From positions 3,003,605 to 3,067,604 of the forward strand of contig OX442321.1 in NCBI GenBank assembly GCA_949358305.1: DNA of 64,000 bases. The letters run 5' to 3'. The notes under the pieces were generated by a model, which had not been told where the DNA came from, did no database searches, and was given only the letters and a program-made list of their open reading frames with translations. Shown one piece after another: positions 20,893 to 59,344 of this stretch; position 1 is the stretch's first letter; each line of letters opens with the position of its first letter. Both the position numbers and the translations under genes were made by a program. Source of the stretch: Strigamia acuminata. Taxonomy: Eukaryota; Arthropoda; Chilopoda; Geophilomorpha; Linotaeniidae.

Positions 20893-23157
20893 TCATCCAC
20901 CTCCTGGCAATCCACCTGCTATTCCTGCTAACCCACCTCCTTGTCCTGGCAATTCACCTCCTTGTCCTGGCAATCCACCTCCTTGTCCTGGCAATCCACC
21001 TCCTTGTCCTGGCAATCCACCTCCTTGTCCTGGCAATCCACCTCCTTGTCCTGGCAATCCACCTCCTTGTCCTGGCAATCCACCTCCTTGTCCTGGCAAT
21101 CCACCTCCTTGTCCTGGCAATCCACCTCCTTGTCCTGGCAATCCACCTCCTTGTCCTGGCAATTCACCTCCTTGTCCTGGCAATTCACCTCCTATTCCTG
21201 ACAATCCACTTCCTATTTCTGACAATGCACCTCCTATTATTCCTGACAATGCACCTATTATTCCTGGCAATGCACCTTTTATTATTCCTGGCAATCCACC
21301 TCCTATTCCTGACAATGCACCTCCTATTATTCCTGGCAATGCACCTCCTATTATTCCTGGCAATCCACCTCCTATTCCTGGCCTTTCACCTCCTATTCCT
21401 GACAATCCACCTCCTGTTCCTTGCCATCCATTTGTTGCTCCTGGCCGGCCACCTCCTATTCCTGGCCATCCACCTCCTATTCCTGGCCATCCACCTCCTA
21501 TTCCTGACAATCCACCTCCTGTTTCTTGCCATCCACTTGCTGCTCCTGGCTGTCCACCTCCTATTCCTGGCAATCCACCTTCTATTCCTGGCAATCCACT
21601 TTCTATTCCTGGCAATCCACCTCCTATTCCTGGCAATCCACCTCCTATTATTCCTGGCAATCCACCTCCTATTATTCCTGGCAATGCGCCTCCTATTATT
21701 CCTGGCAATCCACCTCCTATTATTCCTGGCAGTGCACCTCCTATTATTCCTGGCAATCCACTTCCTATTATTCCTGGCAATGCACCTCCTATTATTCCTG
21801 GCAATCCACCTCCTAATCCTAGCAATCCACCTCCTATTCCGAGCAATCTACCTCCCATTCCTGGCAATCCACCTCCTATTCGTGGCCATCCACCTCCTAT
21901 TCCTGACAATCCACCTCCTGTTCCTTGCCATCCACTTGTTGCTCCTGGCCGTCCGCCTCCTATTCCAGGCCATCCGCCTCTTGTTCCTGACCATCCACCT
22001 CCTATTCCTGGCCATCCACCTCCTATTCCTGGCCATCCACCTCCTATTCCTGGCCATCCACCTTTTGTTCCTGGCCATCCACCTCCTATTCCTGGCCATC
22101 CACCTTTTGTTCCTGGCCATCCACCTCCTATTCCTGGCCATCCACCTCCTATTCCTGGCCATCCACCTCCTATTCTTGGCCATCCACTTCCTATTCCTGG
22201 CCATTCACCTCCTATTCCTGGCCATCCACCTTTTGTTCCTGGCCATCCACTTGTTGTTTCTGGCCATCCGCCTCCTATTCCAGGCCATCCGCCTCTTGTT
22301 CCTGGCCTTCCGCCTCCTGTTCCTCGCCATCCAACTCTTGTTTGTGGCCATCCGCCTCTTGTTCCTGCCAATCTGTATTCTGCTATTGGCGGATCATCTT
22401 CTGGTCGTAGCCAGTCATCTATCAATGGTTTAAGCACTGGATTTACAAATGTTTTTATAATAAAATTTACAAGTGTAGTTGCCAATGCTTTTACCACATT
22501 CCTTACAATCGGCTTTAGGAGGCCAATTACCTTTTCAAAGAGAAAATTTTTGACCAAATATGTCATCATCAAATCCCATGCCATATTAAATATCCAACCA
22601 GTTAATTCAGCAATTATCAATGTTATTATTTTATCTTTCAATTCCGCTAATGTTGTTGTTGTTGTTATATCCAAGGCAGTTATTTGGTCAGCCACTGGAC
22701 ACAGCATTTTACCGAACCATCCATTTTCTTTTGCTGCCAATTCACCAACCGATTTAGTTAGCAATTTAGCTAGCCATTTACTTAGAAGTGGAGCTAGGTA
22801 CAGATCTAGCAATTTATACAGAGTTGTAGTTATGAATGGAGAAATTATAAAAGCAAAGGGGATTGCACCTATCAGTTGACCTAGCAGTTCACTTAGCAAT
22901 TTAAGTAGCAATTTACCTAGCACTTTACCTAGCACTTCACCTAGCAATTCACCTATTCTTTTCAATTTGACTGGTTCTATTTTACAATCTTTTTTCATCA
23001 ATGTTTCTACAACAGCTGTTGTTGGTGCAGGAGTTGTTGGTGTTGTTGCAGGAGTTGTTGGTGTTGGTGCAGGAGTTGGTTTTGTTGTTGCTGCGTGTAT
23101 GTGCAAGACCAGGAGAAAACTCAAACAAACAAGATTGATTAAAACATTAACTTTCAT
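20893..23157 (-). CDS. G1: secreted glycine-heptad protein, single exon (754 aa)
   Basis: One uninterrupted minus-strand frame begins with a clear signal peptide (MKVNVLINLVCLSFLLVLHIHA). A Thr/Pro linker follows (about 23-50), then 230 residues of hydrophobic Gly/Leu helices starting RIGELLGEVLGKVLGKLLLK, and about 450 residues of heptads GGGWPGI, GGGLPGI and finally GGGLPGQ. It ends in the repeat without the cysteine tail seen in A2, A3 and B. The last twelve or so heptads (about 20930-21190) are nearly identical at the DNA level (21 bp unit). All six frames are fairly open because the repeat has no stops, but only this frame has a signal peptide and homologues. No known family is recognised; a secreted structural role is inferred. 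The repeat sequence makes assembly length uncertain. Confidence 0.82.
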   Translation of the reverse strand: MKVNVLINLVCLSFLLVLHIHAATTKPTPAPTPTTPATTPTTPAPTTAVVETLMKKDCKIEPVKLKRIGELLGEVLGKVLGKLLLKLLSELLGQLIGAIPFAFIISPFITTTLYKLLDLYLAPLLSKWLAKLLTKSVGELAAKENGWFGKMLCPVADQITALDITTTTTLAELKDKIITLIIAELTGWIFNMAWDLMMTYLVKNFLFEKVIGLLKPIVRNVVKALATTLVNFIIKTFVNPVLKPLIDDWLRPEDDPPIAEYRLAGTRGGWPQTRVGWRGTGGGRPGTRGGWPGIGGGWPETTSGWPGTKGGWPGIGGEWPGIGSGWPRIGGGWPGIGGGWPGIGGGWPGTKGGWPGIGGGWPGTKGGWPGIGGGWPGIGGGWPGIGGGWSGTRGGWPGIGGGRPGATSGWQGTGGGLSGIGGGWPRIGGGLPGMGGRLLGIGGGLLGLGGGLPGIIGGALPGIIGSGLPGIIGGALPGIIGGGLPGIIGGALPGIIGGGLPGIIGGGLPGIGGGLPGIESGLPGIEGGLPGIGGGQPGAASGWQETGGGLSGIGGGWPGIGGGWPGIGGGRPGATNGWQGTGGGLSGIGGERPGIGGGLPGIIGGALPGIIGGALSGIGGGLPGIIKGALPGIIGALSGIIGGALSEIGSGLSGIGGELPGQGGELPGQGGGLPGQGGGLPGQGGGLPGQGGGLPGQGGGLPGQGGGLPGQGGGLPGQGGGLPGQGGGLPGQGGELPGQGGGLAGIAGGLPGGG

Positions 23158-23440
23158 TTTGGATGACTGTTCTGTACACTTTGCATCCTCAATGCATTTC
23201 TGTAATCAGAGTAATTAAAACTGATCAAAGAAAGAGTAAAATATCATCTCTCTTGAATAAACTAAGAATAACAGAAAGAAAATATTTTTATTTGTTATTT
23301 GAGTAATAACGTGATTATTCTGGCTTCATGAAACGAATACAAAAGGATGGTCAAATATCAATAACTAAATCTAACGAACCATTAAATATATTCTGCATTT
23401 TTACAGTATTTTCTATTTTTCTTTTGTGATCTAAGTTGTG
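23158..23440 (-). promoter_or_regulatory. Family promoter block upstream of G1
   Basis: The first 280 bp upstream of the G1 start closely match the upstream regions of A1, A2, A3, Q and, in shorter form, P and B. Shared pieces are ACTTTGCATCCTCAAT, GAGTAATTAAAA-TGATCAAA, the TATA-like minus-strand string ATAAAAATATTTTC, and AATACAAAAGGATGG. Conservation at every member argues that it drives coordinated expression. Confidence 0.6.
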
Positions 23441-24721: not shown

Positions 24722-27553
24722 TTAACATGGTATTGCACCTCCTCTTCCTGTTCCTGGCCATCCACTTCCTGTTCCTGACAATCCACCTCCTGTTCCTGGC
24801 CACGGCCATCCAACTTCTCTTCCTGGCCATCCCTCTTCTGTTCGTGACCATCCACCTCCTGTGCCTGGCCGTCCGTCTGCTATTTTTAGCCATCCACCAT
24901 CACCTCCTATTCCTAGCAATCGCTCTTCATATCCTCTTTGTAGCAAATCATACACCAAGGCACTTATCACAAATTTTATAAATTTCTTTAACCCCTTTTT
25001 TATAGCTGAACTTTCCTCAGAAAGTATCCCATCTCCTCCTGGCACTAATTTTCTCAAAATAAAACTTATCACACCATACATGAAACCAACTATCGAATCA
25101 ACTAACTTATCTTTTAGTTTTTCTATCAATTCGTCTAGTGTTAATGTTACTCCCAGCCATTTAATTAATTTAGCAACCGATCGACACCACCATTTACCTA
25201 TCAATTCACTTTCTGCCAATGTAACTACTAATTTACTTAGCCATTTACTTAGCAATTTAGCTAGCCATTTACCTAGAATTGGAGATATAAATATATCTAA
25301 CAATTTATATAAAATTGTACCTACAAATGGAGTTATCAGAAAAGCAAATGGGATAATACTACCTATCGCTATATTTATCACTTCAACTAGCAATTTAATT
25401 AGCAATCCACCTGACGCTTTACCTATCAATTCACCTAGTAATTCACCTACTATTTTAAATGCGAATGTTGATATTGTACAAGAGGATGCTGTTGTTGTTG
25501 TTACATCTGTTGATGTTGTTGCAGTAGTTGTTGTTGTTGCAGTAGTTGTTGTTGTTGGTCCTACCAATTCAGCTATTAAATAAGCCAATTGACATAGCAA
25601 TTGTCCTAGTATTCCTTCTCCTTTTCCTGCATATTGAGCTAGCAATTGACCTATCAATTTTCCTATCAATTTTCCTAGCAATTGACCTATTTGTTTCCAT
25701 TTTTCTGGTGTTGCTTCACAAGAAGATGTTGCCTGGCGGGATTTCAGGAATTTTCCGATGGCCCATGATGGCGCCAATTTTTTTTTCTTTGTTGTGTCCC
25801 AATAAATTTGTTCTCGTGGCCCGATAAACTTGTTTCCGTGGCCCGGCCTGTCCAGATCTTCCGATAATAAATCTGTTTCCAGTCCAACTCTGGTTGTTGT
25901 AGGAGTAGTAGAAGTAGGAATAGTTGTCGTAGTAGCAATAGTAGGAGTAATTTTAGATCTTGTTGTTTCTTTGATCTTCTGTTGACCTGCTTGGCCACTG
26001 TATTAATATATTGTGAATGAATTATGAATAATCTGCTCCTACTATCTTGGTGGCAAATTCAAACATACAAATTCTTTGTGTGCACAAACAACCTGCAACC
26101 AAAAATTATTGCATACAAGTAAATAGGTATTTTGTTCTATTTCTGGGTACACAAAAAAAATTGTTGCTTAAAGTTGGCACCAAAATGCAGAGTATTAGCT
26201 TAAATTGTTAACCCATTCTGCTTGTGACTGGGTGCATTTAATCTATATTTCACACCTGCAGTGTACCCTTTACTATCGTATTTGCTGGACCCAACCTATA
26301 CCCAGCAATGTTAAATTCCGTCCCCCTTCTGAACAGTCTGTTTGTAAAGTCGACTTTCTGGGAACAGTTTCCTTAAAATTTAAAAGTTAATTGAGGGCCC
26401 CCGAAGTCACACTGCACCTGGTGACCTCAAATGGTGTACATCTCCTTGCCAAAAAAATGGCACGCTCGATTTTATTTCTGTCTTTCCATTTTCTAATTGG
26501 AAATTTAAGACAAAGATACAAATGTAAATTTTGCTTTTGGTACATAAAACTACAATCATAATTTTTAATTTAGGGCCCCTGAAGTCACACTGTGCCCGGT
26601 GGCCTCAAATGGTACATGCGCGCCACTGAGGCCGAGTGGTTTTTAATTAGACGGATTATCTGCTATGGTGGCTGGCTTGGGCTGGCTGCCAGTTCAGATA
26701 ATTTTCATTGCATCAACATATTCTTACCCATGTGTTAAAAAAGATGCATATTTGAAAAAAACCCTGCAATAAAAAAAAGATTTGTTATGAGAGAAAATGA
26801 AAATTAAATTTTAATCAGTTAGCATACATAATAGCACTATACTATCAGTAGTAATATTAAAAAAAATGTGTTTAAACTTTAAAGAAACTAGCTGGGCGCC
26901 CGTTGCTCCGCATTTCATTGCGGTAGCAGGTAACAGATGATCCCCGGGGGTACAAAAGTCATCAAAATCACTGACATGGGCTTTCGAAACCCGTTCCGAA
27001 TCTGAATTAATCCGAATTAATCAGCTAAATCTTTCCGAATCCCAACCGAATCCCATCCGAATCCTATGAAAGATTGTAATCTCTGATTGTCGTACCACCC
27101 TGGATGATCCGCTGTGGTAATCACCAGCCTAAATACTTTTTGAAAAATAGCTTCAACATATACTTGCTTGTAATTGGACTGACTGTGCCTGCAAAAAAGT
27201 TCAAACGTTAGTAAGTTGTAGAAAATATTCAACTCTGAGGGAAATTTTACCACCACGAATTGCTACGTAAATAAAACACACAACAATTTATCCTGCCGAA
27301 TGGACAACAAAAGCTAATCTTGCCGAAGCATTGATCATCGAAATGGCAACTTGAGCATTCCAAACCAGGATTGCTGGTAGGAGAAGGACAATCTAATTAA
27401 AAAAAATAACAAACTAATCAAACACTTTATAATTTAATGAAGCAATAAATTCTACTGACCGAGTGTGTTAGCGGTCCAATGGGATGTTCCATGTGTGTGC
27501 AAGAACCCAAAAAAATTCAAGCAAACAAGAATGATTAAAACATTAACTTTCAT
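24722..27553 (-). CDS. A1: secreted WAP-like / hydrophobic-helix / glycine-heptad protein (503 aa)
   Basis: My model joins exons 27460-27553, 27251-27392 and 24722-25997 in frame (94+142+1276 nt). Exon 1 is the family signal peptide (MKVNVLIILVCLNFFGFLHTHG). Exon 2 gives an eight-cysteine domain with spacing C-x10-C-x2-C-x5-C-x6-CC-x6-CC (core CSSCHFDDQCFGKISFCC), close to a WAP four-disulfide core but with the last two Cys adjacent. Exon 3 gives a Thr-rich linker (TPTIATTTTIPTSTTPTTT), two copies of an IGxLLGxLIGK helix module, further hydrophobic helices (VIPFAFLIT-type) and only about 45 residues of heptads. Compared with A2 it has lost most heptads and the cysteine tail, ending AIPC. The methionine-like start inside exon 3 is a TTG codon, so the upstream exons are needed. 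Function unknown. Confidence 0.7.
26375..26640. repeat. Direct repeat pair inside A1 intron 2
   Basis: Two copies of a roughly 45 bp motif (GAAGTCACACTG-xx-CC-GGTG, then CCTCAAATGGT) start near 26394 and 26573. The pair recurs in A2 (41882 and 42061) and, more diverged, in A3 (57833 and 58002). It is part of the conserved 1.25 kb intron 2; no function is evident. Confidence 0.5.
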
Positions 27554-27880
27554 TTTGAATGACTGTTGTGTACACTTTGCATCCTCAATCCATTTCTGTA
27601 ATAAGAGTAATTAAAATTGATCAAATATGTTATTACAAGAAAGAGTAAAATATCATCTCTCATGAATAAACTAAGAATAACAGAAAGAAAATATTTTTAT
27701 TGTAATTTGAGTAATAACGTGATTATTCTGGCTTCATCAAACGAATACAAAAGGATGGTAAAATATCAATAACTGCAATCTAATGAACAATTAAATATAT
27801 TCTACATTTCAACAGTATTTTGTCTATTTCTTTTGTGATCTAAGTCGTGCCTGTATTTGAGAGTAAGGCTTTCGTGTCAT
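27554..27880 (-). promoter_or_regulatory. Family promoter block upstream of A1
   Basis: It matches the blocks upstream of G1, Q, A2 and A3. On the minus strand a TATA-like ATAAAAATAT lies at about 27691-27700, some 140 bp before the start codon. TTATTACAG just before AAATGGATTGAGG could be an acceptor of a 5' UTR intron. Confidence 0.55.
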
Positions 27881-27894
27881 TTGTGGACACTACA

Positions 27895-28289
27895 ATTGTT
27901 TTGTGACCGCTTGGCCACCCAGGGTGAGCTGCATCAATGCCACACACCACCTTACGGCCCCAAGGTCATCCCCTCTGTGGGTGGACTGACCTAGCCTGGA
28001 GGAGAAGGGAGCTGAGTGGTGTGGTGAGGAGACGAGAGAGAGAAGACAGTCTGTCACTGGTCGTGATAGAGAGACGTGAGTCTCTCTCCGACCGTGAGAG
28101 AGAGAGGAGCTGCGACCTTCGAAGAGACAAGACGTGTCTCGGGCTATCGTGAACCAGGGCAAGCCTGCCCTGTGTGAACTCTGCACTCCTCGCCATTCAC
28201 CACAGTGAAGCTCGGTGTTGCGGCGGTCTCCATAATGCATCCTCCATGAGTGGCTGCGTGGGTCGTAAGTGAGTACAACATGAATGTTA
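27895..28289. other. GC-rich block of unknown nature
   Basis: About 390 bp that are much richer in G/C than the surroundings, with purine runs GAGAGAGAGAAGACAG and an imperfect palindrome around GACGTGAGTCTCTC. It carries open frames on both strands (about 137 codons minus) but no recognisable domain. It is present in both copies of the duplication (43383-43777). It is probably part of the adjacent LTR-like element. Confidence 0.4.
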
Positions 28290-29400
28290 TGTGGTGACCT
28301 CAAATATTCCTATTTGAGTAAGCACCATATTTCCAATTTGTCCTGTAATCATAGCAAACACTATTTTATGTTCTGTTTCAATGTAAATTGAAATAAAACA
28401 TATACTGCTATAGTTAAATAAAAGACACAATATTACCCAAATAATATTGTATCTTGCAGCAAGTTTTGGCCCGGCAACAGCGTCAACCAATCACGCTGCA
28501 GCGTGCATTGCTTTGATGATGCTGCTAGGCGTGTGCCTGGGCGGAGCATCCCTTCCTCTCGCGCGTGCCTGGCTCAATTGTTGCACACGACCCGAAGGTG
28601 GCCGTGTGTGATCTAAGCGCAACTCGTCATCTGCGCAGCTTTACTGAGCAGATTTTGGAGTGAGCCAAACGGTTTTGGCCCACTCTTCCCGCACTCTTGA
28701 TTCCACTTCCAAACTGTTCACAACCGTGTCAAACTTATGCCCAAACTTGCTAAGTGTGATCTGTGATATTGGAAGAATTGAGACTCATTGCTGGTCCGTG
28801 CCAACTGTACGGAATAGCGCCTTTCTACTTGAATTGTAGTGTAATTTAAGAGATTTCTGTGTGGAATTGACATTGAGCTTGCTCTGTCAATTTGAAGTGC
28901 TTTGTGTCGAGTCTAACTCCACAAAGCAATCTGTTTGTAGACGGATTGTTGCGTCGAGCTTGCTCCGTGATAATTAACCCGCTGTGTGCTAGACGTATTC
29001 TCGTGTTGAGCGTGCTCCACGGGAAGTTTTAGGTGTATTTAGAGGTAGGTTTTTGGCATCGAGTTTACTCTGCCAAAATCCCGCGCTCACGCGATGCCAT
29101 CGACGCCATCTTGGAGCCGACCGTTACTGTGAGTGTCCAAGTACGAGAAGAAGCCAGATCGACCCAGTCATTACTATTATTATTTCCCAATTATCGTGTA
29201 TTTGTAGGAACAATTAAAGCAATCTATGTATTCCTTTACTTTGTGTTAAAATCACTCCCCTAGACAACCATTTGGCCACAGAGTAGAAGTCCTAACGGCA
29301 TCTTGACGACGATTACTTGTTAAGTTTATTTTAATTTAGCAAGTGAAAACCCGGATTGCCGCAGTTATGTTGACGGGATTCCCCATACCCCTAGACAACA
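28290..29400. mobile_element. LTR-like repeat block a
   Basis: It opens TGTGGTGACCTCAAAT and closes CCCCTAGACAACA. Two other blocks (30800-32069 and 37913-38391, the latter inverted) open TGTTGTGACC or TGTGGTGAC and close CCTAGACA-CA, so the three look like related LTRs. Internal AATTAAAGCAATC and repeated GAGCTTGCTC phrases are seen. No clear target duplication and no internal coding region were found. A paralogue of the sequence just downstream (29405-29520) lies at 1850-1985. Confidence 0.45.
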
Positions 29401-29688
29401 AGTATTAAAGGCCAACAACCAATAATAGGGAGTCTTAGTCATTTATTCGTGAGTATGCGTCCCACACCAGGATAATCAGTCTCCGGATTACCTTGGTGAA
29501 GACCATACCAGTCACAGTTTATGTTCATGAAATTTACGTAAAAAATGTCACTCCCAAAAACATTTATTCCAGCTAACATAAAGGGCATAGATACATGATA
29601 CAAATGTAAATTTAACAGTTATAACTCGTTCCGTAAACCAGATTCAACCCTTTCCATATTGTCGCTTTCAATTAAGTTGAACACGATA

Positions 29689-30591
29689 TTAAACAAGGCA
29701 GTGGACAAATACATGGACGTGGACATGTAGGACATTAGAGGCAACAAACAAAACAAAGCCAACATTTCCAACAAACATCACAAGGACATGTTGGACATAT
29801 AGAGCATGAACATCCACATGTCCCTCCTGTTCCTGGTGATTCACTTCCTGTTCCTGGCAATCCACCTCTTGTTCCTGGCAATCCACCTCTTGTTCCTGGC
29901 AATCTACCTCCTGTCTTTAGTAATCCACCTTCTGTTCTTGGCAAATGGTTTTGTCGAGTATTATTATACCACGTTCACACAATGGATCGAGTTTGGCCGG
30001 ATCTGATCCACCCGATCAGATCCAACTGAACAGAGTTCCAATATCCACTTGGATGGAGTTGTGTTTACACCAAATGTGATTCAATCAAACCAAACAGGTT
30101 TTAGAAACACCTCACTACAATGGCTGCCATTTTATTATCGAATAATGCGCAACAATGGAATGCTACAGACTCCTGACATTATTTTATGATTTCCAATTCG
30201 AATCCAATCGTCGAATCGAGTTGTGGCAACTCAATTGACGAACAAAGTTGTTGGGTACACAGATCTAGATACATGAACGGAGTTCAGTGTTCACACCAAT
30301 CTTGGATCTGGATTCGCCGCTTTGGATGAGATCCAAAAGTTTGGTGTGTAAATGGTATAACTGTTATTACGATAGCATAACTACAACAGTTTAATTTTTC
30401 ATCAATTAACTTTGGGTTTTTATATTGTTTCCTTTAAGAATTTGATGAAAACCCACTCAGTGCATTTGACCTTTAAAGCAAAAAATAAATACTACTGACC
30501 GATTGTTTGAGCAGTCTAATGAGATTTTCCATTTATGTGCAAAACCACAAGAAATTCAAACAAACAAGAATGATTAAAATATTAAGTTTCA
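29689..30591 (-). pseudogene. P1: decayed cysteine-tail member of the secreted family
   Basis: A former exon 1 (start codon at 30591) encodes the family signal peptide but has lost one T, so it runs into a stop after MKLNILIILVCLNFLWFCT. The distal part keeps five or six heptads (GGRLPGT, GGLPGT) and the cysteine tail CSICPTCPCDVCWKCWLCF, interrupted by a TAA where relatives read CCPK. The reading frame resumes after the stop as CPTCPRPCICPLPC. A MITE (29964-30360) lies between the two parts. Two independent lesions argue for a pseudogene. The duplicate at 45177-46079 has the same lesions. Confidence 0.75.
29964..30360. mobile_element. TIR element (MITE D) inside P1
   Basis: TTATACCACGTTCACAC on the left matches the inverted right end (GTGTGTAAATGGTATAA). 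The roughly 400 bp interior shows GGATCTGATCC and GTTCACACCAA motifs and no coding capacity. The TTA/TAA termini would fit a PIF/Harbinger-type target but this is not certain. Confidence 0.6.
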
Positions 30592-30799
30592 TTTTGAATG
30601 ACTGTTCTGTACACTATGCATCCTCAATCCATTTCTATAATAAGAGAAATTAAAATTGATCAAATATGCTCTTACAAGAAAGAGTAAAATTTCATCTCTC
30701 ATGAATAGATGAGAATAACACAAAGAAAAAATATTTTTATTGTTATTTGATTATAAACAACCATCTTTTACCAGATTATTGTGTGTTCAAAGTTTAGGT

Positions 30800-32069
30800 T
30801 TGTTGTGACCTCAAATGTCCCTTTTATTTGGCCTATTTGGAGTACAAGAAATTAATAATCCAATTTATTTAATGTGTTAAATAAATTGTTTTACAGTCCC
30901 TTTAATTATTTGGAAATACTAGAAATTGGTAATTTAAAGAATCAATTTATTTTAGTGTTTTTAATGAATTATTTGTTAAAATAATTACATATTTTTGCTT
31001 GCTTGTGCAAATAAAATACTCATTTTATTTGCAATTGCCAAGTGCTTTTGGCTGTTAAACAGAAACCGTTAGGGCTGCCATGGCAACCTAACTGCCAAAT
31101 TGGGGGGTTGCTATGGCCAGCTCCTAATTTGCACCGTTGCTGGGCACGAAGTGTGCCAGGTGCATGCCACGCATGCGCACTCGGCCGATTTTCCGGCCAA
31201 AGTTTGAGTAATAAATTCGTTTATTACTCACTCTTTGCCTCCTCCTCACACCGTTCACACCGACACAGCTTTGTTCAAACCAAAAACACTGTTTTGTCCG
31301 TGATCCGTGAGATATTGCAAAGTTTCAACCGATTTGCTTGATGCCAATCCACATCAAGTGACTCCTTCCCGGACGACGAAGTCGACGTGCAACGGACCGA
31401 GCAACCGTTGTTTCCGCCGCCGCCCGAAAACAGACGTACACACGCCATCGTAGACCGACGCCCGGAATACGCCAAGCCGACGAAACCTCGACGCTAGCCA
31501 CCCGACGACGTCAATTCGAGTGATATACGTTGAAGACCGACGCCAGCCAGCCGCCGAGTTGACGAGGGACGACACGCGAAAGCCGACGAAACCTCGACGC
31601 TCGACTTACTGACGACGGTAATTTGCCGAGAAGAAGCGGACACCTGAAGACCGAATTCGACAGTGCGAACCACGCCATTGGATTCGTGAGTCTTCAACGG
31701 AGAATTTCCCGTTTCAACTCGAGGGTTCACACCTCGTATTCTCCACTTTGGCCTGGCTACCTAGCTGGCCACAGCCGAATCAACTCGCAAAGTCTCACGA
31801 TTTCGCGCCCGTTTGTGTGCATTTGCACCAATTTTCACGGCGATCCGTTGCCGCCATTTTCCAAACCTATTGTTTCCGCGCACGCGAACAATTCCATTGT
31901 TCTCGCGCCTCTCTCTTCTTTCCTTGTTTAACTTTAACAATATTCATTCGATAATTTATTTAATTCATGTAAACCTATTACCCCTTAATTCTAGCATTAA
32001 TAAAACTGTTTATTCATTTCAAACTACTCGTTTATTATTACATTTGTTACCAAAAAACCCCTAGACACA
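30800..32069. mobile_element. LTR-like repeat block b
   Basis: It opens TGTTGTGACCTCAAATGTCC and closes CCCCTAGACACA. A GC-rich centre (31350-31640) has GACGACG-rich phrases, and an AATAAAACTG polyadenylation-like signal lies near 32007. These fit the U3-R-U5 layout of a solo LTR, but I could not find matching target duplications. The ORFs inside (about 60-100 codons) show no domains. Confidence 0.45.
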
Positions 32070-32257
32070 AAACCAACAGCCAAACCCGATAGAAGACCTT
32101 TTACGGCATTCAACTGCTTCCACAGGTTGAATACCGGGACCTTATGCATTGAATTAGTTAATTAATTAGATTAATATTCGGTGCAATTATTATATTTTGG
32201 GACATCCAGGAACGCAACAGGTTTATACCGTTTGTACAGTTTATAAAAACAGCCTGT

Positions 32258-36902: not shown

Positions 36903-37024
36903 GTTATTGAAAGCATTTATTGTTTAACATTAGCGGGCTATACAGTATACTGTTGCGTATGACAACAGCTGTTACTATTGTTCTGTCCCAAAGATGGAGT
37001 AAATGCTCAACTTGTTTTATTCTT

Positions 37025-47557: not shown

Positions 47558-47745
47558 AAACCAACAGCCAAACCCGATAGAAGACCTTTTACGGCATTCA
47601 ACTGCTTCCACAGGTTGAATACCGGGACCTTATGCATTGAATTAGTTAATTAATTAGATTAATATTCGGTGCAATTATTATATTTTGGGACATCCAGGAA
47701 CGCAACAGGTTTATACCGTTTGTACAGTTTATAAAAACAGCCTGT

Positions 47746-49032
47746 TCACTCTTCTCCTCCATCTTCTTCTCCTTCGTCTTCTTCTCCTTCATCTTCTTCT
47801 CCTTCTTCATCTTCTTCTCCTTCTCCTTCTCCTTCTCCTTCTCCTTCTTCATTTTCAGTTCCATCTGGATTTTCAGTTCCATCTTCATTTTCAGTTCCAT
47901 CTGGATTTTCAGTTCCATCTTCATTTTCTGTTCCATCTTCATTTTCTGTTCCGTCTGGATTTTCAGTTCCATCTTCATTTTCTGTTTCATCTTTATTTTC
48001 TGTTCCATCTTTATTTTCTGTTCCATCTTTATTTTCTGTTCTATCTTTTCCACTTCCTGTTCCATCTTCTCCAATTCCTGTTTTAGTAGTAGTAGTAGTT
48101 GTAGTGGGAGTAGGAAATATCCTGGCCATCCTCGTTTTGGTAACTAGAAAATAATACAAAATTAAATTAATCACTTTTAAAGTATTGCAAAATTAGTAAT
48201 GAGTTCTTTTAGGGGGATGGTTGGCAGGGTTGTGCGGTTATTTCTTTGGGCGAGTGCAATGTGGTTTCCGTAAAAAATCGCAATGTGTGCGGTATATCGC
48301 AAGGGTCACCTGATGTTGTTAGCCCAGGGTACTTAACTCAATTAGAACGACCCCAAATTCACAGCTTGTAGCAATCGCCAACTCACCGGGATATTGAGTT
48401 GTTGAAGTTGTAGTTGTAGTGGGAGTTGTTGTAGTTGTAGGAGGAGTTGTTGCAGCTGCTTTAGGAATTATAATTGCACCGGGAATTGTTGTAGTTGTAT
48501 CGGGAATTGTTGTAGCTGTATCAGGAATTGTTTTAGCTGTATCAGGAATTGGTTTAGCTGCATCGGGAATTGTTATAATTGTATCGGGAATTGGTGTAGC
48601 TGCATCGGGAATTGTTATAATTGTATCAGGAATTGTTGTAGCTGCATCTGGAGTTGGTTGAGCTGTATTGGAAGTTGTTGTAGTTGTAGTGCGAGTTGTT
48701 GTATTTCTTAGGGCAGTTGTTGTAGTTGTAGTGGGAAATGTACCAGTATTGTCAATTAAACACGATATTAAACAAGGCAATGGACATATACATCGAGGTG
48801 GACATGTAGGACATTTAGGGCAACAAGCAAAACAAATCCAACATTTCCAACAAACGTCACAAGGACATGTTGGGCATATAGGGCATGGACATGCACATGT
48901 TCCTCCTGTTGGTGGCGAGTGTTTTTGCAATCTATCCTTTTTTAATTCTAATCTTCTGCTTGTAATTGCATGAACGTGAAAGACCCGTAGAAAAATCAAA
49001 CAAACACGAATGATTAAAACATTAACTTTCAT
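47746..49032 (-). CDS. B2: secreted cysteine-dense protein with acidic tail, duplicate (347 aa)
   Basis: Exons 48387-49032 and 47746-48143. The sequence is identical to B1, including signal peptide, 17-cysteine domain, TIPDA repeats and DGTEN/Glu tail, and it has the same promoter block (49033-49188). With B1 it doubles the dose of the acidic member of the cluster. Confidence 0.75.
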
Positions 49033-50051
49033 TTTCAATGACTGTTCTGTACACTTTGCATCCTCAATCCATTTCTGTAATAAGAGTAATTAAAATATGT
49101 TGTTCCACGAAAGAGTAGTATACCATATCATATATCATATCATTTCATGAATAAACTAGAATAACACAAAGAAAAAATATTTTTATGTTATTCGTTGTTG
49201 AAAAATAACTTTTCGTTTTCCATGCAATTTTGAAATTGATGCTAGGAGTTGCTCTCATAAGATGTCCTGGTATTTGTCTGCATTCACTGTACCCTTTATG
49301 AATTCAAGGTTGTCAACTCCGTTACTGCTAACACACCCCCACACAATCAAATTTTAGGGAAAATTTATAGTGTGTTTCAGGCAATCTGGCTGAAAGGCCT
49401 CCGAATTGTTTCTCAACACCGTGAACAGTTTGATGGTTTACAATAAGTGTGGGACTTTATCACTCCTGCATATTATCAAGGACATATAGAAACCATGCCA
49501 GATCTGATTCAGGCAGTAGTAAGTGCTAAAGGAGATGTCACACAATATTAAAATGACTTGACCACTTTCACATGAATCAAGTAGTGCAGTGATCCCTTTC
49601 TCTTGTGTCAAGTGATTCAACTGAAATCTCTCATAACTTTCTTGTTTAGTTGTTTGTATTGTTGGTTTTTATTGCTTACCTTTGTGGATTTTCTAGTTTT
49701 CTGAAATGTACTGTATTTATCAATTTATGCAACTTGTACACAAACCTTCATCACACCAGAAAGTGAAATACCTCATTTCAAATTTAAATTTTATTTTAAA
49801 TTTATAAATTTTAAATATTATCATTTTTTGTTATGTGAATTGAAATAAAGTCAAAATGCCAAATTTAATAATGCTCAAGACATAACTTTACACATGAACA
49901 ATTTGTTTCTACATTTTCCTCTTAGGTGATAATCCTGGCTTACAATTCAGGCACAACCTAATAACTATTGTTTCCACTATAATAAATCCCCACAATTATT
50001 ATTGAAATGCTGAATAATCCCAAACAAAAGCGAGAGTTATTTGATGTGCAC

Positions 50052-51797
50052 TCATCTATCTCCTGTTCCTGGCCATCTACCTCCTGTTCCTGGCAATCCA
50101 CGTCCTGCATCAGGCAATCCTGACGTTCTATTTTTTCCTACTGGCAGTTCACCTCCTGTCCCTGGCAATTTTCCTCCTGTTCCTTGTGATCCACTTCCTG
50201 TTCCTGGCAATGCACCTCCTGTTCCTGGCCATCCGCCTCCTGTTTCTGACCATCCGCCTCCTGTTCCTCGCCATCCGCCTCCTGTTCCTCGCCATCCGCC
50301 TCCTGTTCCTCGCCATCCGCCTCCTGTTCTTTGCCATCCAGCTCCTGTTCCTGACAATTCACCTCCTGTTCCTGACAATCCGCTTCCAGTCCATGGCCAT
50401 CCGCCTCCAGTCCATGGCCATCCGCCTCCTGCTCCTGGCCATCCGCCTCCTGTTCCTTGCCATCCACCTGCTGTTCGTGGCCATCCGCCTCCTGTTCCTT
50501 GCCATCCACCTCTTGTTCCTTGCCATCCACCTCCTGTTCCTGACAATCCGCCTCCTGTTCCTGGCCATCCGCCTCCTGTTCCTGGCCATCCGCCTCCTGT
50601 TCCTGGCCATCCGCCTGCTGTTCCTGGCCATCCGCCTCCTGTTCCTGGCCATCTGCCTCCTGTTCCTGGCCATCCGCCTACTGTTCCTTGCCATCCACCT
50701 CCTGTTCCTTGCCTTCCACCTCCTGTTCCTTGCCATCCACCTCCTGTTCCTGACAATCCGTCACCAGTCCATAGCCATCCGCCTCCAGTCCATGGCCATT
50801 CGCCTCCTGTTCCTTGCCATCCACTTCCTGTTCCTTGCCATCCATCTGCTGTTCCTGGCAATCCGCCTCCTGTTCCTTGCCGTCCACCTCCTGTTCCTGA
50901 CAATCCGCCACCAGTCCATGGCCATCCGCCTCCAGTCCATGGCCATCCACTTCCTGTTCCTTGCCATCCATCTGCTGTTCCTGGCAATCCGCCTCCTGTT
51001 CCTTGCCGTCCACCTCCTGTTCCTGACAATCCGCCACCAGTCCATGGCCATCCGCCTCCAGTCCATGGCCATTCGCCTCCTGTTCCTTGCCATCCACTTC
51101 CTGTTCCTTGCCATCTGCCTTCTGTTCCTCGCCATCCGGCTCCTGTTCCTTGCCATCCATCTGCTGTTCCTGGCAATCCGCCTCCTATTCCTTGCCGTCC
51201 ACCTCCTGTTCCTGACAATCCGCCTCCTGTTTCTTGCAATCCAACTCCTCTTCCTGACCATCCGCCTCCTGTTCCTAGCAATCTATTTTCTGCTATTGGC
51301 GGTTCATCTGCTGTTCGTAGCCAAACATCTATCAATGGCTTTAGCGGTGGATCTACAAATTGTTTTAAAATAAAACCTACAAACATTTTTGCCAAATCAG
51401 TTATCACTTGCTTTACAAACGTCTTTAAAAACACAAATATCCAAGATATCTCGCTAGGAGTATATTTAACTAACAAATCAAATGCCAAATCAAAATCCAA
51501 GAAGTTAACATTTTAACTATCAACCCTATTATACTCTCTTTCAATTCCCTTAGTGTTGTTGTTGTTGTTATATCCAATTCAGTTATTTGGTTAGCCACTG
51601 AACACAGCAATTTAACAAACAATCCTTTTTCTGTTGCTGCCATTTACTTAGAAGTGGAGCTATGTGTAGAATGTACATAATTTAAACAATAAAATCTACT
51701 GACCGAGTGTGTTAGCGGTCCAATGGGATGTTCCATGTATGTGCAAGAACCCAAGAAAATTCAAACAAACAAGAATGATTAAAACATTAACTTTCAT
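50052..51797 (-). pseudogene. Q2: duplicate of Q1
   Basis: Identical copy of Q1 with the same deletion and frame changes. The intact signal exon is at 51704-51797. Confidence 0.6.
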
Positions 51798-52301
51798 TTT
51801 GAATGACTGTTCTGTACACTTTGCATCCTCAATTTATTTTTGTAATAAGAGTAATTAAAATTGATCAAATATGTTGTTACAAGAAAGAGTAAAATATCAT
51901 CTCTCATGAATAAACTAAGAATAACAGAAAGAAAATATTTTTATTGTTATTTGAGTAAGAACGTGATTATTCTGGCTTCATCAAACGAATACAAAAGGAT
52001 GGTCAAATATCAATAACTAAATCTAATGAACAATTAAATATATTCTACATTTCAACAGTGTTTTGTCTATTTCTTTTATGATCTATGTTGTGCCTGTGTT
52101 TGAGAGTAAGGCTTTTGTGTCATTTGTGGACACTACAATTGCTCATGGTTAAGAAATTATACAAACGGAAATGTAAACAATTATAAGTCGTTCTTAAACC
52201 AGATTAAACCACTTTCAATATTTTTTGCTTTTAATTGCGTTGAACACGATATTAAACCTTGTACCGTGATGGCAAATTGTTAGTCTTAGAAAATATTGAA
52301 A

Positions 52302-52390
52302 AATAGGGACCTGACACCTGACACCTGACACCTGACTTTTAGACTAAAAGTCATGTGTCAGGCGTCAGGTGTCAGGTGTCCATCCCTATT
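52302..52390. repeat. 89 bp palindrome, duplicate
   Basis: Second copy of the hairpin at 36814-36902, unchanged. Its survival without rearrangement is notable because long palindromes are unstable. Confidence 0.9.
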
Positions 52391-52512
52391 GTTATTGAAA
52401 GCATTTATTGTTTAACATTAGCGGGCTATACAGTATACTGTTGCGTATGACAACAGCTGTTACTATTGTTCTGTCCCAAAGATGGAGTAAATGCTCAACT
52501 TGTTTTATTCTT

Positions 52513-52668
52513 TTAATTCACATCTTGTGTTCCTGATTCTAACAGACAAATTTTGTCATCAGCAATTTCTTCAATATCGAACAGCGACTCCATCCGTTCC
52601 ACGTATTGCTCCCAGTCTGTGACCGGGTTGTGCTCCTGGAAAGGGGCTTGTGTAGAAGGCTTAGTGAC
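52513..52668 (-). mobile_element. Gag fragment, duplicate
   Basis: Second copy of the retrotransposon gag relic at 37025-37180. Confidence 0.5.
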
Positions 52669-53400
52669 AAAAAAAGTTGAAAAAAGCGATGAAAATGTGA
52701 TACGGCTCGGGCCGAACGCGTGGTGCAAGGTCAGTTCTACCAATACCGTATGTATTGTCGTGATCTCATAAGAAATATTTTTAAATACTCTGGTTTGGCA
52801 CGTGCCAAACCAGCCTGCTGTGTCTTGGGGATGAAAACTCACATCTCACCCAATTTAGCTGGGATGAGCTGCAAATTAACAGTTTTTGTGCAACAATTCC
52901 TTTGTTGCACCAAAATACAATCATTGCCATATTGACTGCACAGATATGAAGACATCTAATTTCGTCGTCTTGTTCAATTTAGACACCAAATTTTCTTCAT
53001 TTTGTTCAATTTAGACATCAAATTTTGTCGTTTTGTTCAATTTACATCCGCACAATTTACATGTGCATTAAATTAGCATGTTGCGTCCTACTTTGGTGTA
53101 GGTTTAATTGCGCTAACGTGTCACACTTTACCTGTGATCTATTATGCAAATACCCAAATGAATACCAAATGTATTTAAATGAACAAGTTATTTATTCAAT
53201 AGGCATTATGCCTTAAAATACACTCAGTTATAATTCTAGAGTCGACTTGGTCAGAGTCGAACAAAATATTTCTCAAGATGGCGTTCCTAGTTCCGCGTGG
53301 TCGGTGGAACGATGGTGGCGTCTCGAGTTGGCGTTAATTCGTCACGGATTCGTCGTTCGCGGACGCGGTGGAATGCTCTTTCTAGTTTTCTATCCGTGCC

Positions 53401-53879
53401 TGTTGTCTAGGAGTTGGTTTTAGCGTCTCAATGCTCTGACCAGGAACTGGGGGTTCCTTACCGGGCTCTCGGACACTTGGGTAGCAGAATAACCGTGGGG
53501 CGGTTATTTGATGTGAATTCACAAGGGCTATTCTTCTGCTTTCAGGTAAATTCGTGAGAGTTACAGTTGCACTTTACTCAGCGGTCCTCGATCAATTCTA
53601 ACTTGTACTTGAAGTTGGCCTGACGGTGAGGTAGTTGCTGTGTTCTTGGTGTCGTTTGTGTAAGTTCTGACTTTAGGCGGGAAACTCCACCTTTTATAGG
53701 TCAGTGTGAGGGGCCAGGCGCAGCCAATGGGGCTCGCCACCGGCCGCATCACTCCCTTCGGGGCAGGCGCTTCCCAGGGGGGGGAAGGCGGAGCCAACGC
53801 GAGGGGAACGACTCTTCTTTCATAGTGACTCAGAGGGATGGTATCCACTGGAGGGAAAACCACCCGCTGTGTCACCACA
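53401..53879 (-). mobile_element. LTR-like block c, duplicate
   Basis: Second copy of 37913-38391. It carries C at 53719 where copy 1 has A, the single difference found between the duplicates. Confidence 0.4.
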
Positions 53880-54695
53880 AGCATTCTGTGTTCAATTATG
53901 CCTTATTATAGAATATAGAAAAATACAGCATACTTTAATGCAGATATTGTGGAAATGTAAACCAGCCGGTCCATCTCGAAACTATTTAGCAAGACTAATC
54001 AATAACAGAAAAAAAGAATTTCAAAGTGATTATTTCAGCAGTTCTCACACCTTTTTGGCTGCGAAGCTGTTTACACAAATAAAAATGTGGCGTCCCAGTG
54101 GTCCGCTGACAGCAGGTCAACTACTATTGATGATGCTTACCTTTGTAGATTTTCTAGTTTACTGAAATGTACCGTATTTATCAATTTGTGCTACTTGTAC
54201 ACATGCTAACCACACCAGGAAGTTTTTAATTTTTAAGTTTTTAATTTTTAATTTTTAATTTTATTAAATATTTAATTTTTAATTCTCTTAAATATTTAAT
54301 TTTTAATTTTCTTAAATATTTAATTTTTAATTTTCTTAAATATTTAATTTTTAATTTTCTTAAATAGTTAATTTTTAATTTTCTTAAATATTTAATTTTT
54401 AATTTTCTTAAATATTTAATTTTAAAATTTGTTATGATAATTGAAATGCACAATCCTGATAAACAGTCAAAAAAACAAATTTAATAGTACACAAGCACAA
54501 GATCAAGACATTACTTTACACATGAATAATTTGTTTGATGTTTTATTAACGACTCCGTTTTGGTCTGTTTTCCTCCTAGGTGATAATCCTGTTTCTACTA
54601 TAATATGTCCCCACGATTATTGTTGAAATGCCGTATAATCGCTAACAACACTGAGAGTAATTTGATATACACTTGTTAATCTGAAGTCATGAAAT

Positions 54696-57600
54696 TTAAA
54701 CCCCTTTTGTTGTTGAACACGGTATTACGCAAGGCAATGGACAATTACATCGACGTGGACATGTAGGACATTTAGGGCAACAAGCAAAACACATCCAACA
54801 CTTCCAACAAACGTTACAAGGACAAGTTGGACATATAGGGCACGGGCAGCCATATGCCCCTTTTGGTCGTGGCAATCCACCTCCTGTTCCTGGCAATCCA
54901 CCTCCTGTTCCTGGCAATCCACCTCCTGTTCCTGGCAATCCACCTCCTGTTCCTGGCAATCCACCTCCTGTTCCTGGCAATCCATCTCCTGTTCCTGGCA
55001 ATCCACCTCCCATTCCTGGCAATTTCCCTCCTGCTCCTAGAAATCCAATGCCCATTCCTAGCAATCCACTTCCTATTCCTAGCAATCCACTTCCTATTCT
55101 TGATAATCCACCTCCTGTCCCTGACAATATCCCTCCTGTTCCTTGCAATCCACTTCCTGTTCCTGGCAATGCATCTCCCTTTCCTGGCAATTTACCTCCA
55201 GTTCCTGGCCATCCACCTCCTGCTCCTGGCCATCCTTCTCTTACTCCTGAACATCCACTACCTGTTCCTGGCCACTCACCTTCTATTCCTGACCATTCAC
55301 CTCCAGTTCCTGACCATCCATCTCCTGATCCTGGCCATACACCTCCTTTTGCTGGCCACACAACTCCTGTTTCTGGCCACACACCTCCTGTTCCTGACGA
55401 CTCACCTCCTATTCTTGACCATTCACCTCCAGTTCCTGGCCATTCACCTCCCGTTCCTGCCAATCCACTGCCTGTTAATCCACCTCCTGTTTTTGGCCAT
55501 CCACCTGCTAGTAACCATCCATCTCCTGTTTTTGGCCACTCACTTGTTCCTGGCCACTCACCTGTTTCTGGCCACTCACCTGTTCCTGGCCACTCACCTG
55601 TTCCTGGCCACTCACCTGTTCCTGGCCACTCACCTGTTCCTGGCCACTCACCTGTTCCTGGCCACTCACCTGTTCCTGGCCACTCACCTCTTATTCCTGG
55701 CCATCCACCTCCTGTTTCTGACAATCCACTTCCTGTTCCCGGCCACGGCCATCCAATTTCTCTTATTGGCCATCCCTCTTCTATTCCTGACCATCCACCT
55801 CCTGTGCCTGGCTGTCCATCTGCTATTTTTAGCCATCCACCATCACCTCCTATTCCTAGCAATCGCTCTTCATATCCTCTTTGTAGCAAATCATATACCA
55901 AGGCACTTATCACAAATTTTATAAATTTCTTTAACCACTTTTTTATAGCTGAACTTTCCTCAGAAAGTATCGCATCTCCTCCTGGCACTAATTTCCTTAA
56001 AATAAAACTTATCACACCATACATGAAACCAACTATCGAATCAACTAAATTATCTTTTAGTTTTTTAATCAATTCGTCTAGTGTTAAAGTTGTAAGAGTT
56101 GTTGTTGTTATTCCCAGCCATTTAACTATTTTAGCAACCGATCGACACACCCATTTACCTATCAATTCACTTCCTGCCAATGTAACTGCCAATTGACCTA
56201 GCCATTTGCTTAGCAATTTAGCTAGCCATTTACCTAGAATTGGAGCTATAAATATATCTAACAATTTATATAAAATTGTACCTATAAATGGAGTTATCAG
56301 AAAAGCAAATGGGATAGTAACACCTACCGCTATATTTATCACTTCAACTAGCAATTTAATTAGCAATTCACCTGACGCTTTACCTATCAATTCACCTAGT
56401 AATTCACCAATTCTTTTAAATTCGTCTTTTGTTATTGTACAAGGAGTTGCTGTTGTTGTTATAAGATCTGTTGTTGTTGCTTTATCTGTTGTTGTTGTTA
56501 CATCTGTTGTTGTTGCAGTAGTTGTTGTTGTTGGTCCTACCAATTCAGCTATTAAATAAGCCAATTGACATAGCAATTGTCCTAGAATTTCTTCTCCTTT
56601 TCCTGCATATTGAGCTAGCAATTGACCTATCAATTTTCCTATCAATTTTCCTAGCAAATGACCTATTTGTTTCCATTTTTCTGGTGTTGCTTCACAAGCA
56701 GTTTTTGCCTGGCGGGATTCCAGGAATTTTCCGATGGCCCATGATGCCGCCAATTTTTTTTCCTTTGTTGTGTCCCGATAAATTTGTTCTCGTGGCCTGA
56801 TAAACTTGTTTCCGTGGTCCGGCCTGTCCAGATTTTCCGGTAATAAATCTGTTTCCAGTCCATACCTGGTTGTTGTAGGAGTAGTAGGAGTAAGAATAGT
56901 TGTCGTAGTAGCAATAGTAGGAGTAGGTGTAGTTGTTGTAGGAGTAGTAGTTGTAAGAGTAGTAGTTGTAGGAGTAGGAGTTGTAGGAGTAGTAGTTGTA
57001 GGAGTAGGAGTTGTAAGAGTAGTAGTTGTAGGAGTAGTAGTTGTAGGAGCAGTTGTTGTAGAAGTAGTAGTTGCTGTAGGAGTAGTAGTTGTCGTAGTAG
57101 CAATAGTAGGAGTAATCTTAGAGGTTGTTGTTTTTTTGTTCTGCTGTTGACCTGGTTGACCACTGTATTAATATATTGTGAATGAATTATGAATAATCTG
57201 CTTCTACTATCTTGGTGTCAAATTCAAACATGCAAATTCTTTGTGTGTAGAAAAAACCTTCAACCAAAAATGTATTGCATACAAATAAATAGGTATTTTG
57301 TTCTGTTTCTGGCTACACACAAATAATTGTTGCTTCGAGTTGGCACCAAGATGCAGAGTACCGTACTTTATCGATTAAGAGCTGCAGTTCTTATTCAAAA
57401 CTGCCATTTTTGTTAGCAATTACAATTTCGCTTTTTCGTTGGTTATATTTGTTTAATGTAACAAACGAAGTCTGAACGTCACGAACGAAGCGTGCTTTCA
57501 TCGTTCGTGAGGTTAAATACGAAAACAATACCGTACTTTTGCAAAAATACGCTATTTTTGGTGTCTCAGCCGCAGCTACTATTCGAGGGCGGCTACAATT

Positions 57601-59344
57601 CGAGGGCGACTCTTAATCGGTAGAATACGGTATTAGCTTAAATTGGTAACCCATTCTGCTTGTGACTGGCAGCATTTAATCTGCATTTCACACATGCAGT
57701 GTCCTCTGTACTACCGGAAAGGTTTGCTAGACCCAACCTATACCCAGCAATGTTAAATTCCGTCCCCCATCTGAACAGCCTGTTTGTATCATCAACTTTC
57801 TGGGATCAGTCCTCTTAAAATTTAAATTAGTCACACTGCACCTGGTGACCTCAAACGATGTACATCTCCTTGCCAAAAAATTGGCATCCTCGATTTTATT
57901 TCTGTCATTCCATTTTCTAATTGGAAATTTAAGACAAACGTACAAATTTATGAACTTTGCTTTTGGTATATAAAACTACACTCATAATTTTTAATTTAGG
58001 GCCCTCGAAGTCACACTGTGCCTGGTGGCCTCAAATGGTATATGCATGCCATTGAGGCTGAGTGGTTTTTAATTAGACAAATTATCCGCTGTTGCGGCTC
58101 GCTTGGGCTGGCTACCAATACAGATATACATTTTTCATCGCTTTAACATACCCATAGTCTAAATATAACGCGTATTTGAAAAAAACCCTGCAAAGAAAAA
58201 AAAGTTTATTATGACTAAGAAAATAAAAAATTAATTTTAATCAGTTAGCATAGTAGCACTGTACCATCAGTACCATTAATTTATTTACAGGTTAAAAATT
58301 CTGGAAACATACAGATCTCTGGCCTATACTCTGTCTCACCATCTCCGTCTGAGTGGCCTATTTTCCATTGACCGAGCCTCATTACTCCTAACTGTGGACT
58401 GTGTGCTACCACCAGGAAAAGTAGTTTAGTTTAGTTTTTAATAATTGAAATGATGTAATGTTATTTTTATTTTATAAGAAAATGTTTTTTCAATTCATGA
58501 AGTAAAGAGTAATGATGTTTTTATTTCAATATTCATGTTTCTTCAGTTTATTGCTTGCTTTGTTAGGAAAGCAAACAATTTTCTAACAAAAGGTAATCGA
58601 TTACAATGTCTACGTTGTAATTCAATTCTGGTGTTTGGGTCTATTTTTTGGATCACTACACTCGTGAAATGGCTCGACCAATGAAAAATAGGCCACTCTT
58701 ATGGTGAGACAGAGTCCACCTGCGATCCTTTTGCACCCAAGAAATTTACTTGGGACCCCTGCAAAAGTTAAAATATTTTTGAATTTTTTATTAAAATAAT
58801 CATCTAAATCTTTCCGAATCCCAACCGAATCCCATCCGAATTCTACAAATGGAATCTCTGACATGCAGATTGTGATTGTTGTACTCCCTGGATGATCCGG
58901 TGTAGTAATTACCAGCTAAAATACATTATTTTAAAATAGCTGCAATATATACTTGCTTGTAATTGGACTGACCGGTCCTGCAAAAAAAATCAAATGTTAG
59001 TAAGTAGTAGAAAATGTTTAACTCCGAGGGAAATTTTACCACCACGTAGTGCTAGGTAAATAAAACACACAACATTTTATTCTACCAAATGGACAACAAA
59101 AGCTTATCTTGCCGTAGCATTGATCATCGAAACTACAACTTGAGCAAAAAAAACCTGGATTACTGGTAGAAGAAGGACAATCTAATTAAAAAGATAACAC
59201 AAACTAATCTAACACTTTATATTTTAATAGAAGAAATAAATTCTACTGACCGAGTGTGTTAGCGGTCCAGTGAAATAATGCATGTACGTGCAAGATCACA
59301 AGAAAATTCAAACAAACAAAAATGTTTAAAATATTAACTTTCAT
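54696..59344 (-). CDS. A3: WAP-like / helix / heptad / cysteine-tail protein (900 aa)
   Basis: Exons 59251-59344, 59040-59181 and 54696-57162 join in frame (94+142+2467 nt). The signal peptide is MKVNILNIFVCLNFLVILHVHA. The eight-cysteine exon is conserved against A1/A2 (CSSCSFDDQCYGKISFCC) although about a quarter of its residues differ. The Thr-rich linker is much longer than in A1/A2, built from TTTTPT, TTTLT and PTPTT units. The remaining helix domain, heptads and 16-cysteine tail equal A2. Intron 2 (57163-59039) is longer than in A1/A2 because two MITEs inserted. Conservation of exon 2 and of both splice phases between A1 and A3, while the introns diverge, supports the three-exon model. 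Function unknown, secreted. Confidence 0.74.
57361..57630. mobile_element. 270 bp MITE in A3 intron 2 with visible empty sites
   Basis: TA at 57359-57360 and 57631-57632 flank TIRs CCGTACTTTATCGATTAAG and, inverted, CTTAATCGGTAGAATACGG. A1 and A2 have the uninterrupted sequence CAGAGTATTAGC at the same place (near 26193 and 41681). This proves insertion with TA duplication, typical of Tc1/mariner/pogo-type elements. Confidence 0.88.
58325..58717. mobile_element. Hairpin MITE, family TATACTCTGG (copy B)
   Basis: The left arm TATACTCTGTCTCACCAT and inner GAGTGGCCTATTTTCCATTG pair with the right arm (GGTGAGACAGAGT and AAAAATAGGCCACTC). The body shares ATTACTCCTAACTG, CACCAGGAAAAGTAGTTTAG and GGTGTTTGGGTCTA with copy A. 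The outer right end has decayed. Confidence 0.7.

Follow-up and report, generated by a model that had tools for sequence, protein, structure and literature searches.

We analysed a stretch of 64,000 nucleotides from chromosome 8 of the geophilomorph centipede Strigamia acuminata (C10:3003605-3067604, hereafter the window), which contains a cluster of genes for predicted secreted repeat proteins. Strigamia is placed in the Geophilidae: Linotaeniinae by the genome note (PMC10556566), and S. maritima is assigned to the Linotaeniidae in PMC8056527. The cluster extends about 56 kb beyond the window end, with sequence types G, A and B inside the window and type D outside it. One leader-plus-signal cassette precedes mature parts of several designs, all drawing on a small set of modules, and the copies arose by tandem duplication and unequal crossover. 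A preliminary description of the window had counted at least six intact-looking minus-strand genes. G1, A1-A3 and B1 do read through as gene models, but because 15.5 kb are tandemly duplicated with one mismatch, the six reduce to four distinct sequences (G1, A1, A3 and B1), one chimera (A2) and one duplicate (B2).

Gene models

All genes and pseudogenes in this section lie on the minus strand, and positions are those of the window. G1 (20893-23157) is a single open coding exon of 754 residues, comprising a signal peptide, a Thr/Pro stretch, a helical domain and C-terminal glycine heptads (GGGWPGI, GGGLPGI and GGGLPGQ). Glycine accounts for 32% of the protein, and the predicted isoelectric point (pI) is 9.6.

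The A genes were modelled with six exons each, and in all three the exon phases match and the frames read through. A1 (24722-27553; putative exons 27553-27460, 27392-27251, 27188-27164, 26763-26728, 26092-26043 and 25997-24722) would encode 540 residues with a short heptad part and no CPxC tail. The A2 model (39208-43041; exons 43041-42948, 42880-42739, 42676-42652, 42251-42216, 41580-41531 and 41485-39208) gives 874 residues, with an A1-type front, an A3-type rear, heptads and a 16-Cys CPxC tail. A3 (54696-59344; predicted exons 59344-59251, 59181-59040, 58977-58953, 58187-58152, 57257-57208 and 57162-54696) is the longest at 937 residues, and contains a WAP-like exon, a Thr-rich stalk, two helix modules, heptads and a CPxC tail. 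The predicted pIs of A1, A2 and A3 are 9.1, 8.1 and 8.3.

B1 (32258-33544) is predicted to have two exons (33544-32899 and 32655-32258) encoding 347 residues: a signal peptide, a 17-Cys CPxC head, a Thr/IPDT stalk and an acidic DGTEN/EGEE tail, for a pI of about 4.1-4.2. B2 (47746-49032) is identical to B1 and belongs to the second of the two duplicated units.

Two further sequences are damaged. G2 (34564-36354, with a copy at 50052-51842) joins an A-type signal exon to a G-type helix domain that is truncated and interrupted by two stops; its heptad frame is open, at 486 residues, and it is probably a pseudogene. A broken CPxC copy (29681-30634, repeated at 45169-46122) has lost its signal-peptide frame and has one stop in the CPxC block. 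The cassette copies at 30592/46080 and 36309/51797 thus appear broken.

Tandem duplication and the origin of A2

The duplication spans 25683-56698, as two units (25683-41210 and 41171-56698) with a period of 15,488 and a single mismatch at 38231/53719. Since the two 15.5-kb units are the same but for one base, B2 is a repeat, as are the other G-type pseudogene and the other broken CPxC copy. A2 equals A1 at and above 41171 and equals A3 at and below 41210, which places the crossover inside 41171-41210, an interval identical to both parents and located inside the first helix module. Unequal crossover between A genes should yield just such a product, and A2 shows it directly.

A false duplication in the assembly was considered as the source of A2 and B2, but the identity of A1 and A3 at the junction is limited to 40 bases, which we judged too few to mislead a HiFi assembly by overlap. 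On this ground a real duplication, perhaps allele-specific, appears likelier than an assembly error.

A shared 5' cassette

A 42-base pattern taken from the signal-peptide start was used to search 164 kb around the window, with at most 12 of 42 mismatches allowed. It located 18 cassette copies (11 minus, 7 plus), ten of which are within the window and all of these on the minus strand. Four of the 18 are repeated by the tandem duplication, leaving 14 distinct copies. Across these, mean column identity is 0.84 before the ATG (210 alignment columns, 152 usable; 140-180 bases per copy) and 0.87 over the first 60 coding bases, then 0.46 beyond, so that the likeness ends where the signal peptide ends. 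The A3 copy (59285-59497, minus strand) may serve as the example: it consists of 153 leader bases, with a possible splice acceptor and a two-codon upstream open reading frame (ATG-GAT-TGA), and the first 60 coding bases.

Twelve of the 14 copies keep an AG, preceded by a CTCTTATT-like tract, immediately ahead of the leader, an arrangement that resembles a 3' splice site. On this evidence the conserved block could mark a leader splice site, where a leader intron ends, rather than a core promoter. The nearly identical signal peptide and upstream block reported in the preliminary description are confirmed as a shared block, which may be something other than the "promoter" of that description.

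A two-codon upstream frame (ATG-GAT-TGA or ATG-CAT-TGA) is found in the leader of 12 of the 14 distinct cassettes, for instance just upstream of 59344. A role in translational control is possible.

In a search of the whole host assembly (237,517,015 bases in 157 contigs, of which C10 comprises 10,363,448) with the B1 leader and exon as a DNA query, and all 24 candidates scored, the leader was found at C10:3.027-3.124 Mb. Two single matches at 74% lie elsewhere, one on C5 (chromosome 4) and the other on C13 (Y). Queried against the same assembly, the G1 helix domain has relatives at the cluster locus, and C5 and C13 hold two short fragments of the helix; the relatives of D1 are at the cluster locus. 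For B1, with 150 of 286 candidates scored, relatives were found at the cluster; matches elsewhere were to its Thr-rich part only.

The sequences on chromosome 4 (C5:11332501-11333184) and on the Y (C13:1081145-1081823) are relics of a decayed cassette with a helix module. Both have a signal sequence divided between frames and retain a fragment of the helix module. These relics sit in stretches that match each other piecewise at 79-99%.

Protein modules

Modules were mapped over the 164 kb by tblastn with nine module queries. In G1 the order is signal, helix domain, tail helices, heptads. In the A genes it is signal, WAP-like exon, Thr-rich stalk, two helix modules, tail and heptads, followed in A2 and A3 by the CPxC tail. 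The D genes, in four copies to the right of the window, have a signal, one helix module and a Thr-rich run, and the D1 and D2 frames are 43% and 63% Thr. The helix module is thus common to the G, A and D genes, the CPxC block to A and B, and the heptads to G and A.

These maps qualify the earlier view that the mature parts differ greatly in design: several designs do stand behind one cassette, but their modules are shared, so they are not unrelated. Part of the diversity reflects one shuffled module set and recent duplication. Signal peptides and structural-type repeats (heptads, Thr-rich spacers, helices and acidic DGTEN repeats) occur among the G1, A and B models, as had been proposed. The CPxC tails with 16-17 cysteines also hold as to number, with 17 Cys in B1 and 16 in A3 when counted on the alignment, but not for A1, which has no such tail. 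The acidic tail contains 53 Asp or Glu per 122 residues.

The helix modules have a glycine at every fourth residue, and G12, G16 and G20 are invariant in both helix alignments. Glycine runs of three to five at spacing 4, which include the GxxxGxxxG pattern, occur in all six helix modules (run shuffle p 0.0006-0.04). The count of GxxxG gave shuffle p values of 0.001-0.08, four of the six being below 0.05 and two above, for modules that are related and not independent. GxxxGxxxG is the glycine-zipper spacing, which may have structural meaning in these helices. At the DNA level, Tandem Repeats Finder reports periods of 12 bases in the helix coding stretches, 21 bases in the heptads and 18 bases in the acidic tail.

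The WAP-like exon is the second exon of the A genes (27250-27393 in A1, also 42738-42881 and 59039-59182, minus strand). It has eight cysteines in an order similar to that of WAP domain proteins, and its alignment spans positions 4-39 of the 41 in the Pfam WAP profile (PF00095). It scores 9.2 and 10.4 bits against a cut-off of 20.8, however, with E values of 0.83 (A3) and 2 (A1), and it falls outside the 19 WAP matches in the host genome. B3, outside the window (window coordinates 80529-84053, plus strand; L023:6529-9999 and on), has the same cassette and a CPxC head, then nine WAP stretches in one exon, and also an extended run of Thr. Here the Pfam match to PF00095 is clear (E 6.6e-42, 142 bits against the same cut-off). 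The WAP stretches lie in a 195-base tandem array with 98% matches, and the two B3 exons join in phase. Outside the WAP and WAP-like parts, the cluster proteins are not WAP.

Coding evidence

Comparison of A1 with A3 argues that the frames are coding. Exons 1-5 have no indels, and within exon 6, as far as the end of the tail helices, there are three (189, 15 and 18 bases), all multiples of three, versus 18 indels in the introns, four of them multiples of three. GT-AG boundaries are kept at all five introns in both genes. Between A3 and G1 no stop has appeared despite 199 base changes over 189 codons, where a neutral simulation expects 6.5 stops (p = 0.0005), and changes in hydropathy are milder than chance (p = 0.017). 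In nine other pairs the corresponding p values are 0.04-0.44 for the absence of stops and 0.04-0.25 for hydropathy. For the CPxC and WAP-like modules the ratio of nonsynonymous to synonymous substitution rates (dN/dS) is 0.30-0.65 in six of seven pairs; the seventh has no synonymous change.

Relationship to known families

Searches of a protein collection with G1 residues 20-275, B1 residues 20-95 and A3 exon residues 125-450 gave no relatives at E ≤0.01. This is weak evidence of absence, because the centipede coverage of the collection is uncertain and the candidates scored were limited (the best 7998 and best 7990 for two queries, and two word-sharing candidates for the third). Among the window family members scanned, no Pfam family exceeded its cut-off. 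Matches to DEC-1_N, DUF2512, MscL, New_glue, NICE-1 and others were rejected as all below cut-off; New_glue (PF21827) reached 14.1 and 14.8 bits in two of the five proteins scanned, against a cut-off of 31 bits. Sequence searches of the PDB gave marginal matches with nothing of weight, and the best of these, a heterodisulfide reductase matched over a Cys-rich stretch (E 0.02), was dismissed as chance. The literature matches listed contain no description of such genes.

The statement in the preliminary description that no described family has this combination has thus survived checks by profile and protein searches: the whole proteins had no match in Pfam, the PDB sequences or the protein collection. 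One component of the cluster, B3, lies outside the window and belongs to a known domain family. The protein family is new to the searches made, judged by its sequences, although clustered secreted repeat proteins are a kind already known.

A possible sternal-gland glue

We propose that the cluster supplies a single exocrine secretion with its structural proteins, that this secretion is most probably the defensive glue released by the sternal (ventral epidermal) glands, and that the gene family is young and confined to a single locus of S. acuminata; we give this reading as a whole a probability of about 0.4. Some centipedes, geophilomorphs included, are reported to exude a fast-hardening proteinaceous glue from the sternites (PMC7766067, PMC6023451), and the Linotaeniidae are listed among the families with cyanogenic constituents in their secretion (PMC6023451). 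The glue of Henia and Haplophilus, members of the same order, is a proteinaceous hardening secretion known from PMC7766067 as protein bands (12 and 130 kDa in Henia; three bands of 30-67 kDa in Haplophilus).

In such a glue the cluster proteins would be secreted together. The large Gly-heptad proteins (G1 and A) would form an elastic, phase-separating bulk, and the glycine-ladder helices might self-associate. CPxC blocks would cross-link through disulfides as the droplet hardens, the Thr-rich stalks could bear O-glycans and retain water, and the acidic B tail might pair with G1 and A1, which are basic. Gly heptads, self-associating helices, Cys blocks, Thr stalks and a basic/acidic pair (pI 9.6 for G1, about 4.1-4.2 for B1) are all features that a setting glue could use. 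We know of no CPxC, WAP or helix modules in the Gly-rich proteins of tick cement or of the moth-droplet. By description those Gly-rich proteins or peptides are nonetheless comparable, as they occur in setting secretions (PMC11794139, PMC4778013). The telopodal secretion of Lithobius forficatus offers another likeness by description: this sticky centipede defence is reported to contain 18 unclassified families (Glue1-18), mostly secreted and some Cys-rich (PMC11170834). It comes from another order and another gland, and the Pfam scans revealed no C-type lectin in the S. acuminata proteins scanned.

Several observations weigh against this proposal. The gland is assigned from the biology of the animal, and the predicted protein sizes have no clear match to the Henia bands. 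AlphaFold models of the proteins are helical but of low confidence (mean pLDDT, the predicted local distance difference test score, 46.7 and 68.7). At least four of the 14 distinct cassettes are broken (30592, 36309, 78546 and 118320). The stop test is below 0.05 in only two of ten pairs (p 0.0005 and 0.04), and both it and the hydropathy test compared frames selected for being open. A1 and A3 exons are no more similar than their short introns. The 13 helix-containing pairs have dN/dS of 0.59-3.45, ten of them within 0.74-1.61, and B1 and B3 give 1.38 over the signal and CPxC head; such values are as compatible with weak constraint on the sequence, or with decay, as with rapid evolution. Taken with the support for coding frames, these near-neutral ratios indicate that frame and composition are kept while residues drift, a pattern that would fit repetitive structural proteins but weak constraint too.

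The same figures bear on the alternative that the cluster is a decaying, unexpressed repeat array, whose frames stay open simply because repeats of 12, 18 and 21 bases contain no stops. Repeat arrays here are open in several frames, dN/dS is near 1 for most helix pairs and several copies are broken, but the contrast in indel frame between exons and introns, the kept splice sites, the depletion of stops between A3 and G1 and the conserved cysteines make such decay quite unlikely. If the proteins are made, they could instead be membrane-active components of a defensive secretion or venom, with basic glycine-ladder helices inserting in membranes and WAP domains inhibiting proteases or microbes. 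The invariant G12, G16 and G20 and the nine-WAP gene B3 would suit that role, and the defensive secretion of L. forficatus is reported to overlap with venom (PMC11170834); the mature proteins are, however, long and repeat-dominated, and we hold this to be very improbable. Geotoxin 1-2 and Chilotoxin are among the venom families named for S. maritima. Non-adhesive mucus or cuticle-lining proteins, made by gut, duct or epidermis generally, have in their favour the mucin-like D genes and Thr stalks. This origin too appears rather improbable, since a single cassette that leads CPxC blocks, an acidic tail and Gly heptads alike would better suit a setting composite, and no chitin-binding family was seen in the Pfam scans of cluster proteins.

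Two reproductive materials deserve a little more credence, though each remains unlikely. The cluster might encode chorion-like eggshell or egg-coating proteins, Gly-rich and Cys-rich products of follicle or accessory-gland cells that cross-link around the egg. DEC-1_N, the family of a fly eggshell protein, did match G1, at E 0.17 over 27 residues of the Thr/Pro stretch and far below cut-off, while no chorion family appeared in scans at E ≤1 or ≤0.1. The silkmoth chorion locus resembles the cluster in being a clustered multigene family of secreted proteins with high-Cys members and pseudogenes (PMC4639761), but it shares no Pfam domain with it and is arranged differently: most silkmoth A and B genes are described there as divergent pairs with a common promoter, whereas each copy here has its own cassette, and all ten window copies are on one strand. 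The other candidate is a silk-like male product, either sperm-web threads or a secretion of ultimate-leg glands. Its fibres could well be built from Gly-rich repeats, but no silk known to us resembles the acidic Thr-rich members or the CPxC/WAP ones. Males of Geophilus flavus produce silky threads, and the ultimate legs of male S. maritima are dense with gland ducts, a silk-like secretion being called possible (both PMC8056527).

Should the sternal-gland glue reading be correct, the G, A, B and D types are concrete peptides to seek in the secretion and single genes to localise, for a glue otherwise known in geophilomorphs, as far as PMC7766067 describes it, from protein bands. The cassette is also a testable case for the growth of a new set of extracellular materials at one locus. 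A bolder account, possible though doubtful, is that the locus acts as a secretory chassis, in which a fixed leader-plus-signal cassette was repeatedly coupled to short in-frame DNA repeats of 12, 18 and 21 bases. These repeats would have given rise to new protein materials in the form of helix ladders, acidic tails and glycine heptads, and CPxC and WAP blocks would have been captured alongside them. A multi-component glue would then have evolved de novo in one place and would still be changing by unequal crossover. The chimeric A2 displays that crossover step directly, and we regard it and the design of cassette plus repeats as the most interesting parts of the locus.

Neighbouring features

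Rfam and tRNA scans of the window found none. At 9299-14086 (plus strand) are exons of a SAM-domain protein (SAM_1 E 3.3e-10 in one exon) with long tandem repeats between them, which we take to be SAMD8-like. Three frames lie near the cluster, at 16316-17268 (plus), 15681-16211 (minus) and 18632-19147 (plus). Among them are presumably a GAR1-like (Gly/Arg-rich) and a COX18-like frame, the latter with no Pfam match, as well as a THAP match that is weak and falls short of the cut-off (E 0.0041). A 1220-codon open frame at -1792 to 1867 holds a 73-base tandem array, about 1.7 kb of it inside the window; long frames in the S. acuminata genome can therefore be mere repeats. The left flank (L020-L021) contains what we assume to be frames for DEG/ENaC-like channels and, in a long frame, a copia-like retrotransposon.

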